64,000 bases of DNA, from NCBI RefSeq assembly GCF_012720115.1, contig NZ_VNWN01000002.1, positions 496,001 through 560,000 on the forward strand, given 5' to 3'. Both the position numbers and the translations under genes were made by a program. Each line of letters starts with the position of its first letter. The stretch's first letter is position 1. Shown here one piece after another: positions 7,703-21,593 of the stretch. The DNA comes from Sneathiella chinensis. GTDB lineage: Bacteria > Pseudomonadota > Alphaproteobacteria > Sneathiellales > Sneathiellaceae. The notes below the pieces were generated by a model. That model made no database searches. It was given only the letters and a program-made list of their open reading frames with translations, and was not told the origin of the DNA.

Positions 7703-9085
7703 CTATCCGGTGGGGCCTGTTTCCACCAGATCAAGGCCGTCTTTCAGGACCACAAGATCGATGGGGCCGTTGACGCCGTCCACAACACGCCCGGTTCTGA
7801 CCTCCGGGGTCAGGACCGGGGCATATCCCTGTGCCAGTGCCTTTTGATAGGTTTCGTCGGTGACAAGGACGGTGGCGGCTTCCTGCTTTGCATGTTTATC
7901 GAGCTTGGAGGCCAGATTCACCGGCTCGCCAATGACTGTATATTCAAGCCGACTGTCATCACCCACGGCCCCGAACAGGATAGGGCCTGAGGTCGCGGTA
8001 AAACGGACAATAACCGGGGGCTGACCGTTCTGTTGCCGGGTTTTTGTCCACTGGTTGATCTCGTCGGTCATGGCCTCCAGCGCGGACAGGCAATCGGCGG
8101 CATAATGGTCTGTCTCGACGGCGGCCCCAAAGGTGGCCAGAATGCCATCACCCAGAAATTTATCAATTGTCCCGCCATGCTTCTGGATCAGGGGGACCAG
8201 TCGGGATTGATATTCGGCCAGAAGGGAAATGACTTCGTTGGCCGGATGCTCCGTGGAAAAGCGTGTAAATCCGGCCAGATCGCAATGCAGGATGGCGGCC
8301 CGGCGCATCTGTCCCGTTCCGGGCTTGATCCAGCTTTCCGAATGGGTGATCTTCTCGGCGATTTCTGGCGAGAAGAACCGGGAGAGATCGGCCGCCGCCG
8401 TTGCCTGAACGACCGAGTTCACCAGCAAACGCCGGGCCCTGAAAATGGCGAGGCCAAGGATCAGGGTAACCACCAGAATGCTGATGATCTTGTCGAATTC
8501 CGCGCCCAGAAGAATTTTGTGGGACATGGTATAAAGCACATAATCCTTGGTGATCTCGGACATGCCATTGTCCAGAAAGACGGCATATCCCACAAGGCCA
8601 AGCCAGCCAAGGGCCGCCATGACCCCGGCCAGCAACAGGTATCCCACTTCGAACCGCAAGGCCCGCAAGGCGATGAAGATAAACACATACAGAAGGGTCG
8701 GGGCCTTCAGATAGAAAGAGGCGGGTTGCTGATACTGGATGTGGAAGCTCCAGATCAGGAACATCAGCAGACACATATCCGCAATGACGGACAGGGTCAG
8801 GAACCAGCCCGGCAATCGGGACAGGGTGGCAACCACAATTCGAATGACGGAGAACAGAAAATAGGCGGACAGGGCGTAGGGGACAGGCGCGAACAGCGCA
8901 TCGGCAGTGAAGGTCTTGGGCGACAGGGCATAGAGAATCCAGAACACAAGAACCAGAAACAACTGCACCCAGGCAATCAGGATTTCCGCCTGATCCTGTT
9001 GTTTTCGAACGGCAACCTGAACCCGTTCCGGCAGGTGTCCGTCCGTGGTTTCGCCGAAAACGGCCTTTCTGATCAGTTCAATCAT
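7703..9085 (-). CDS. Membrane class III adenylate/guanylate cyclase
   Basis: 460 residues. About six hydrophobic segments lie between residues 35 and 225, followed by a catalytic domain. Metal-binding Asp residues lie in HCDLAGFT and FLGDGILATFGA, and the Asn region is in EYTVIGEPVNLASKL. The ATP/GTP-selecting residues cannot be decided by eye. The membrane domain carries no recognised sensor family. The gene follows the methyltransferase by 57 bases on the same strand and may be co-transcribed with it. It converges on the ABC operon with a 5-base gap. Confidence 0.88.
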   Translation of the reverse strand: MIELIRKAVFGETTDGHLPERVQVAVRKQQDQAEILIAWVQLFLVLVFWILYALSPKTFTADALFAPVPYALSAYFLFSVIRIVVATLSRLPGWFLTLSVIADMCLLMFLIWSFHIQYQQPASFYLKAPTLLYVFIFIALRALRFEVGYLLLAGVMAALGWLGLVGYAVFLDNGMSEITKDYVLYTMSHKILLGAEFDKIISILVVTLILGLAIFRARRLLVNSVVQATAAADLSRFFSPEIAEKITHSESWIKPGTGQMRRAAILHCDLAGFTRFSTEHPANEVISLLAEYQSRLVPLIQKHGGTIDKFLGDGILATFGAAVETDHYAADCLSALEAMTDEINQWTKTRQQNGQPPVIVRFTATSGPILFGAVGDDSRLEYTVIGEPVNLASKLDKHAKQEAATVLVTDETYQKALAQGYAPVLTPEVRTGRVVDGVNGPIDLVVLKDGLDLVETGPTG

Positions 9086-18709: not shown

Positions 18710-20425
18710 TCAGCGATCTGGCAGCGTGCGGGCGTCCTTGATGATATGAACGGTCAGGGGGTCCTTGCGTCCCCTGATCTCCACCTTGCGCTGTTCCGAT
18801 GGGCCTGTGAAGCCTGCCCTCCGGGCCACCTGATCCGAGAAAACAAGCTCGCGGTCAAAATCCTTGCTGAGGGCTTCAAGGCGACTGGCAGTGTTGACCG
18901 CATCGCCGATGGCCGTAATGGATGTGGCCTTGCCATACCCCATTTCCCCGACAATGACGGACCCCACATGAATGCCGATCCCGATCCGTAACGGGAACGC
19001 CAGATGCGATTTCAGGCTGCGGTTCATGATATCCAGTTCATCGGCCATGGAACGGGCCGCATTCAGGGCCTTGCGGCAGGCACTTTCCGGGGTGTCTTCC
19101 AGACCGAACAGGGCCATCACCCCGTCGCCGATAAACTTGTCCAGATGACCGCCGTTCTTTTCGATGGCGTCCCCCATATGCCGGAAATACTGGTTGATGA
19201 CGAAAACCACGTCATAGGGAAGTTTGTCTTCTGAAAATTGGGTGAAGGCTCTGAGGTCGGCAAACAGGATGGCGATGATTCGCTCCTGCCCCTGCAGATA
19301 ACCGGGCCGGGGGAAGCCCTGCCGGGGGGTGGCCTTGGCGGGCAGCAGGGGCGCCACGGCAAGGTTTGCAACCGGTTGCAACTGACAGGCCAGCCGGGTG
19401 CCTTCTGCGGCGCCAACCCGTTTCAGGACGGCCAGTTCCTGATCCGACGGGGGCGGCAGGCTGTCTGCGCCTTCGGAAATATGGACCCGGCAGGTGGAAC
19501 AGCGGCCCCGCCCCCCGCATACGGATGCATGCGGGATGCCGCCCAACCGGCTTATCTCCAGCAGGGTGGAGCCGACCGGGCCGGAAATGCGCTGGCCATT
19601 GGGGTAATGAATGGAAACCATCCGCTGCCGGCGGAAATGGATGATCCAGAAAACCCGGCTTGCCAGCAACCCGAGCAGGATCAGGATCAGAATTGTCATC
19701 CCCCCATCCCGGAGGGCGAAGACCCATTGCACGGTTTCTGCGTTGGCCCCGGTGGAGGCCAGAAAGGCGGTTCGCCAGTCCGCGTTGGTGGACAGGGCCT
19801 CAACCTCTCTTGCGGCTTGCAGGAAGCCGGTCAGGGCCAGAAGCGGCAAGATAAGGGACAGGCTGTAGAGAGAGGGATAAGCCCGTTCATACCACGGTTT
19901 CAGGCGCAGCCAGAAATGCAGGCCAAGGCATCCGTGAAACCACGCCACCACCAGCCCCAGTGACTGGATCAGGGAATAGAGGGGCGCCCCCACCCATATA
20001 TTGTATAGCACATAGGTATAGCTGTCCGTGACCCCGAAGGCCTCGTGCACGAAACGGGTGCCGATTACATGCAGGATGATCAGCGGCGGAATGGCAAGAC
20101 CAAGCCCGATCTGGAGGATTTCCTTGGCCGGTGTCCGCCGGAAGGATCGTTTCGACAGCAGCTTGTAAAGGGCGAGACAGAGATGGGTCGTCGCCGCCGC
20201 GAATAACATGACCGTTCCGGGTACACTGCGCCAGAGGGCGACAAAGGCGGTCCGCCCGGCTTCCATGGCCTCCAGCGACAGAAGGCCCAGAGAATGGTTG
20301 AGCAGATGCAGGGTGAGGAACAGCATCAGCACAAGGCCGCTGAACAGGCGAAGGGATTCCGGCCGGAGAAACTGTTTCATCCGGCGGGTCGGACTCTGGT
20401 CTTCCGCCTGTTCACTTGTCGTCAT
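18710..20425 (-). CDS. Membrane (cytochrome b-like) / 2Fe-2S ferredoxin / class III cyclase fusion
   Basis: 571 residues with three parts. Residues 22-265 hold about six membrane helices with many histidines (His40, His44, His81, His119, His127, His164, His170), resembling the heme-binding membrane anchors of succinate dehydrogenase/fumarate reductase. Residues 268-360 form a 2Fe-2S ferredoxin with Cys303, Cys309, Cys312 and Cys347 (CX5CX2C plus a distal Cys). Residues 382-565 are a class III cyclase with metal Asp390 and Asp434, and Asn511 and Arg515. The order suggests redox control of cAMP or cGMP synthesis. Heme binding is inferred only. Confidence 0.85.
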   Translation of the reverse strand: MTTSEQAEDQSPTRRMKQFLRPESLRLFSGLVLMLFLTLHLLNHSLGLLSLEAMEAGRTAFVALWRSVPGTVMLFAAATTHLCLALYKLLSKRSFRRTPAKEILQIGLGLAIPPLIILHVIGTRFVHEAFGVTDSYTYVLYNIWVGAPLYSLIQSLGLVVAWFHGCLGLHFWLRLKPWYERAYPSLYSLSLILPLLALTGFLQAAREVEALSTNADWRTAFLASTGANAETVQWVFALRDGGMTILILILLGLLASRVFWIIHFRRQRMVSIHYPNGQRISGPVGSTLLEISRLGGIPHASVCGGRGRCSTCRVHISEGADSLPPPSDQELAVLKRVGAAEGTRLACQLQPVANLAVAPLLPAKATPRQGFPRPGYLQGQERIIAILFADLRAFTQFSEDKLPYDVVFVINQYFRHMGDAIEKNGGHLDKFIGDGVMALFGLEDTPESACRKALNAARSMADELDIMNRSLKSHLAFPLRIGIGIHVGSVIVGEMGYGKATSITAIGDAVNTASRLEALSKDFDRELVFSDQVARRAGFTGPSEQRKVEIRGRKDPLTVHIIKDARTLPDR

Positions 20426-20499: not shown

Positions 20500-21492
20500 T
20501 TAGCCGAGCCGACTTTCCAGCAGTTTTTTCAGGTTCTGTTCCGGGCGGGCCCCCACATGGCTGATGATTTCACCTGCCGCAAGCGAGGCAATCCGCCCGC
20601 TGTCGGCCAGACTGAACCCGTTGGTGAAGCCATAGAGGAACCCGGACGCATACAAATCCCCGGCGCCGGTTGTGTCGACAACATCGACGGACAGATCAGC
20701 CGGGACTTCCACCAGAATGTCGCCGTTCAGGATCAGTGAGCCTTTCTCGCTTCGGGTCACGCAGGCAATTTCCACCTTGTCCCGAATGGACTGGACGGCA
20801 TCCTCGAAGCTGTCGGTCTGATACAGGGATTTCAGTTCATCCTCGTTGGCGAACAGGATATCCACGCCGCCATGGATGAAATCGATGAATTCCTCGCGGT
20901 AGCGGTCCACGCAGAAACTGTCAGACAGGGTGAGGGAGACCCGCTTGTCGGCCTCATGGGCGATCCGGGCGGCCTTTCGAAAGGCTGCCTTGCCGCCTTC
21001 CGGGTCCCACAGATATCCTTCCATATAGGTCACTTCCGACGCGGCGATCATTTCGGGGTCGATATCATCCGGTCCCAGTTCCACGCAGGCCCCAAGATAG
21101 GTGTTCATGGTCCGGTGGGCATCCGGTGTGACCAGAATGAAGCTTCTGGCGGTCGCGGCCCCGTTTTCACTCATGGCCGTATCGAAGGTGACACCCGTTG
21201 CCCGGATATCGTGGGCGAAAATGGCGCCAAGCTGATCATTGCGAACCTTGCCGATATAGTTGCTGGCCCCGCCGAGGGATGCCACACCGGCAGCCGTATT
21301 GCCTGCTGATCCGCCAGAGATTTCAACGGCGGTTCCCATCTTGGCGTAAAGGTCCTCTGCCCGGGCCTCGTCAATCAGGTTCATGGAGTTCTTGACCAGA
21401 CCCTCCGTTTCAAGAAAGCTGTCTTCCACTTTCGTGATCACATCAACAATTGCATTGCCGATGCAGGTCGTGTCAAATCGTAGTCCGCTCAT
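20500..21492 (-). CDS. PfkB-family sugar/nucleoside kinase (adenosine kinase-like)
   Basis: 330 residues from the ATG at 21492, which has an AGGA ribosome site. Ribokinase-fold features are GNAIVDVI at the start, EISGGSAGNTAAGVASLGG, and the C-terminal signature VVDTTGAGDLYASGFLYG with the catalytic Asp. The N-terminal TCIGNAIVDVI pattern is typical of alphaproteobacterial proteins annotated as adenosine kinase. Substrate specificity is inferred. Confidence 0.88.
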   Translation of the reverse strand: MSGLRFDTTCIGNAIVDVITKVEDSFLETEGLVKNSMNLIDEARAEDLYAKMGTAVEISGGSAGNTAAGVASLGGASNYIGKVRNDQLGAIFAHDIRATGVTFDTAMSENGAATARSFILVTPDAHRTMNTYLGACVELGPDDIDPEMIAASEVTYMEGYLWDPEGGKAAFRKAARIAHEADKRVSLTLSDSFCVDRYREEFIDFIHGGVDILFANEDELKSLYQTDSFEDAVQSIRDKVEIACVTRSEKGSLILNGDILVEVPADLSVDVVDTTGAGDLYASGFLYGFTNGFSLADSGRIASLAAGEIISHVGARPEQNLKKLLESRLG

Positions 21493-21593
21493 TGGGTATC
21501 CTGTCAGTGATGATAGGGGACGGAGTATACTGTTTCCACAAGGGAGGGCAAGCAAGGGCTGACGATAACAGCTCTTTTGCCAGACATAAAAAA

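Follow-up and report, generated by a model that had tools for sequence, protein, structure and literature searches.

A CyaC-type adenylate cyclase with a predicted diheme membrane anchor and a [2Fe-2S] ferredoxin domain in a Sneathiella genome

The cyclase gene and its neighbourhood

The minus strand of the window (the whole stretch of 64,000 nucleotides that was analysed) contains the gene of a CyaC-type adenylate cyclase of 571 amino acids (18710..20425, read from 20425 down to 18710), which starts with an ATG behind a good ribosome-binding site (GAAAGGAT). An earlier note on this DNA had delimited exactly the same open reading frame (18710-20425, residues 1-571) without giving the strand.

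The gene directly upstream, transcribed in the same direction, encodes a PfkB-family kinase (20500..21555, minus strand; Pfam PfkB, E 4e-42) and ends 74 bases before the start codon of the cyclase. A pfkB gene occupies this position in 18 of the 74 related loci whose upstream sequence was long enough, and the pfkB-cyclase pair extends over several orders, with examples in Sneathiella, Minwuia, Oceanibacterium and Kordiimonadales. Downstream of the cyclase gene, and facing it, are HIT and the his operon, which are also kept in several related loci. The conserved pfkB-cyclase neighbourhood probably represents ancestral gene order; a functional link between the two genes is a possibility.

The window also encodes a second membrane-bound class III cyclase (7703..9085, minus strand; 460 amino acids) that has no ferredoxin domain, and there are 11 cyclase domains in the whole genome.

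Membrane anchor, ferredoxin and cyclase domains

The N-terminal part of the protein (residues 1-270; 19616..20425, minus strand) is a six-helix membrane anchor to which AlphaFold, VIA-align, conservation and hhalign assign the diheme cytochrome b (SdhC/FrdC) fold. The AlphaFold model of the anchor (residues 1-270, 30 sequences, pLDDT 91.7) comprises six long membrane helices (22-48, 68-91, 100-130, 148-173, 179-212 and 229-264), and eight histidines are present in this part (positions 40, 44, 81, 119, 127, 164, 170 and 263), in agreement with the description in the earlier note of about six helices with many histidines. Four of these, H40 (codon at 20306-20308), H81 (20183-20185), H119 (20069-20071) and H164 (19934-19936, all minus strand), are invariant in 66 of 66 full-length homologues, of which 63 also retain H44.

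The profile of the membrane domain yielded zero matches among PDB sequences at E 10, so that a fold search was needed. The top Foldseek match of the anchor model was FrdC of Wolinella succinogenes (probability 0.99, weak by its E-value of 0.49). In VIA-align, the first six ranks were all complex II membrane subunits, with Z of 11.7-13.7 (Wolinella, 13.3-13.7; D. gigas, 13.3; Chloroflexus, 11.7), and the next row scored 6.2. The best alignment, with Wolinella FrdC (1qlb_C), covers 209 residues at an rmsd of 5.8 and Z 13.7, in a range where helical bundles may reach about Z 13 through common arrangement alone; the match is nevertheless convincing because of the gap to the unrelated rows and because of the histidines. 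In an hhalign profile alignment, all four anchor histidines pair with histidines of SdhC-like proteins (pairwise E 5e-5); the latter sequences were drawn from a TIGR02046 search of 299 genomes of the phylum, which gave zero matches above the cut-off. The cyclase protein itself also scores below the cut-off of NCBIfam TIGR02046 (SdhC; E 0.4, 10.3 bits, cut-off 96). The anchor is related to SdhC in fold, outside TIGR02046 membership, and, given this weak score and the absence of PDB sequence matches, the kinship rests on the fold, the arrangement of the histidines and a profile alignment that is itself weak. The heme ligands of Wolinella FrdC, H44/H143 and H93/H182, suggest by analogy that H40/H119 and H81/H164 are the ligand pairs here.

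The anchor resembles FrdC/SdhC of diheme quinol:fumarate reductase and succinate dehydrogenase in its fold and in the four putative heme-ligand histidines, whereas it has six helices instead of the five of diheme SQOR anchors, carries a ferredoxin and a cyclase at its C-terminus, and has no flavoprotein partner. The sixth helix would bring the polypeptide back to the cytoplasmic side, on which both the ferredoxin and the cyclase must lie.

The ferredoxin domain (residues 275-351; 19373..19603, minus strand) matches Pfam Fer2 above the curated cut-off (E 8.3e-9). Its four cysteines, spaced C303-x5-C309-x2-C312-x34-C347 and including the CX5CX2C motif recognised earlier, are all invariant in 66 of 66 homologues. 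The CX5CX2CX34C pattern is of the adrenodoxin/ISC/NqrF type and not of the plant type, and the phmmer and NCBIfam matches concur.

The C-terminal class IIIb nucleotidyl cyclase domain (residues 383-561; 18743..19279, minus strand) is identified by Pfam Guanylate_cyc (E 1.5e-17, above the curated cut-off), phmmer, Foldseek and its catalytic residues, which bears out the class III assignment in the earlier note. The metal-binding D390 and D434, the adenine-selecting K430 and T504, and the transition-state residues N511 and R515 are all present, and judging from this sequence the domain belongs to class IIIb, with ATP as the expected substrate. Cyanobacterial cyclase structures, among them the guanylyl cyclase Cya2 (2w01), were matched by phmmer. 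The full-length AlphaFold model (pLDDT 87.9, pTM 0.68), in which the relative placement of the domains is unreliable, matches 1wc1, CyaC of Spirulina platensis, in Foldseek (E 2.5e-16). The domain search and the AlphaFold modelling that the earlier note had proposed as checks thus returned Fer2 and Guanylate_cyc at the residues given above and six membrane helices in a complex-II-like membrane fold; the domain layout that it saw is far beyond chance.

Lys430 is lost (replaced by Q, N, A, S or G) in 11 of the 66 family members (L039, L041, L042, L044-L046, L048-L051 and L068), and some divergent proteins among these are also without N511 or T504. Nucleotide specificity or activity may differ in the members that lack Lys430.

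Kinship with CyaC and distribution of the family

The window protein aligns with CyaC of S. meliloti over nearly its full length (42% identity over 556 positions, residues 23-568, E 8e-145), with every heme-ligand, cluster and catalytic residue kept between the two. Both have the same order of six-helix tetra-histidine anchor, [2Fe-2S] ferredoxin and class IIIb cyclase. The neighbours differ: the PfkB kinase gene and the his operon adjoin the window gene, whereas LysR and TetR regulators, absent beside the window gene, adjoin S. meliloti cyaC. Apart from this, only residue-level divergence separates the two proteins.

The S. meliloti CyaC sequence (SMc01818) was read from CP090106.1 (L081), where the gene is annotated cyaC. 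In this record, a LysR gene precedes cyaC and a TetR-type gene (rutR) lies beyond two IS elements, flanks that fit the published order smc01817-cyaC-smc01819; the IS elements are two IS4-type transposases. This 3.7-Mb S. meliloti record is labelled 'plasmid pSymB', yet carries the chromosomal gene cyaC, and the label is probably wrong.

The same layout characterises cluster 1 of the 6TM cyclases, described as an isolated class IIIb group with a ferredoxin between the membrane and catalytic domains, four intramembrane histidines and two predicted hemes (eLife 2016, PMC4821796). Compared by this published description with cluster 1 members of alpha- and betaproteobacteria, such as Rhodopseudomonas palustris Q132R4, the window protein shares the position of the ferredoxin and the four intramembrane histidines, and no difference was seen. 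All sequence-level features of the CyaC-type (cluster 1) family are found in the window protein, namely, six helices, four histidines, a ferredoxin, an intact class IIIb domain and CyaC kinship; direct observations are its domains and fold, the conservation of its ligand and catalytic residues, and its full-length relationship to CyaC. The caution in the earlier note that other proteins might share this domain order was justified, as the layout is that of the published cluster. A unique domain order was rejected, given that cluster and the wide spread of long homologues. The window protein is a further copy of the already characterised CyaC family, not new in kind.

Matches at E <= 1e-20 were detected in 147 of 289 genomes of the class Alphaproteobacteria. 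About 70 of the 147, or about a quarter of the 289, encode long homologues with anchor, ferredoxin and cyclase; the remaining matches are mostly to the cyclase domain alone. Named relatives include Sneathiella, Minwuia, Oceanibacterium, Kiloniella, Pelagibius and Kordiimonadales, the nearest named genomes being Sneathiella-like (59-66%). Relatives are also encoded in 167 plasmid records, mostly of Rhizobium, including R. etli 'cyaCa'.

Some distant relatives have other domain sets. One is a 503-aa soluble cyclase without a membrane anchor, from a genome of the same class (G258; L055:2811-4319, plus strand). Besides its class III cyclase domain, it contains two CDGSH domains, Fer2 and, at the C-terminus, a Rieske domain, each scoring above its Pfam cut-off, so that three kinds of Fe-S domain accompany the cyclase. 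The protein at L170 (G528) combines Fer2 and a cyclase with a C-terminal stretch in which Rieske-like CPH...CRWHH motifs were recognised by eye. In the literature searched, we found no description of cyclases combining Rieske, CDGSH and ferredoxin domains. Soluble ferredoxin-cyclase proteins of about 300-340 amino acids with no membrane part form a widespread group in genomes of the phylum (L168-L181). Conversely, two proteins have the tetra-histidine anchor and the ferredoxin without a cyclase (L052:3020-4177, plus strand, 386 amino acids; L053:2974-4095, minus strand, 374 amino acids).

Proposed redox control of the cyclase

The window protein is very probably a quinone-pool-sensing CyaC-type adenylate cyclase with two hemes and a [2Fe-2S] cluster, most likely activated when oxidised. 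According to PMC10463352, which cites Wissig 2019 (doi 10.1111/mmi.14251), CyaC of S. meliloti contains two bound heme b, these hemes are oxidised or reduced by ubiquinone, which affects activity, and oxidation can activate the enzyme; a scheme in the same source marks a [2Fe-2S] cluster. The heme and iron-sulfur cofactors and the redox control anticipated in the earlier note are thus published for a 42% identical protein with the same ligands, and by analogy the heme and cluster content, the quinone exchange and the direction of control would be the same in the window protein.

In the proposed mechanism, two b hemes, held by histidine pairs in the complex-II-like bundle, would swap electrons with ubiquinone/ubiquinol. 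The redox state would then reach the cytoplasmic [2Fe-2S] domain, the state of which would alter how active the homodimeric class IIIb cyclase is; this order of the relay, from heme to [2Fe-2S] to cyclase, is one that we infer. An oxidised quinone pool would most likely activate the cyclase, and the resulting cAMP would act via CRP-like regulators, the six proteins with cNMP-binding domains encoded in the genome being possible receivers. The function in the Sneathiella-like host is predicted from homology.

The hemes and the cluster could both be present with the [2Fe-2S] domain serving not as a relay from the quinone but as an independent input, which would respond to a soluble electron donor, to oxygen or to iron status. 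The existence of anchor-less soluble Fer2-cyclase proteins (L054, L055 and L168-L181) implies that a ferredoxin joined to a cyclase can function where no quinone is sensed. However, the anchor and the four cysteines always occur together in the full-length family (66 of 66), and PMC10463352 reports a quinone response of CyaC activity, so we consider this arrangement unlikely. Quite doubtful is a scheme in which, in this lineage, the cyclase is functionally coupled to the adjacent kinase of the PfkB family (possibly a nucleoside kinase), with quinone redox and nucleoside phosphorylation in one pathway, or in which the ferredoxin independently feeds in a second redox signal. That the anchor no longer senses redox state, with structural hemes and a cyclase that is constitutive or answers another ligand, would accord with the view that many six-helix cyclase anchors are ligand receptors (PMC4821796), but is highly improbable in the face of four histidines and four cysteines invariant in homologues down to about 35% identity and of the redox control reported for CyaC in PMC10463352. 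Least credible is cGMP or another cyclic nucleotide as the product, despite the phmmer match to Cya2 and the loss of the adenine-selecting lysine in 11 of 66 family members, as both K430 and T504, the residue pair of class IIIb adenylate cyclases, are retained in the window protein.

With the window protein regarded as a quinone-sensing cyclase of the CyaC type, no new kind of system is opened, and the family alignment supplies residues to test. Quinone-sensing CyaC cyclases appear to be common in Alphaproteobacteria, well beyond rhizobia, and, with a long homologue in about a quarter of the genomes searched, signalling of the respiratory state through cAMP is probably widespread in this class.
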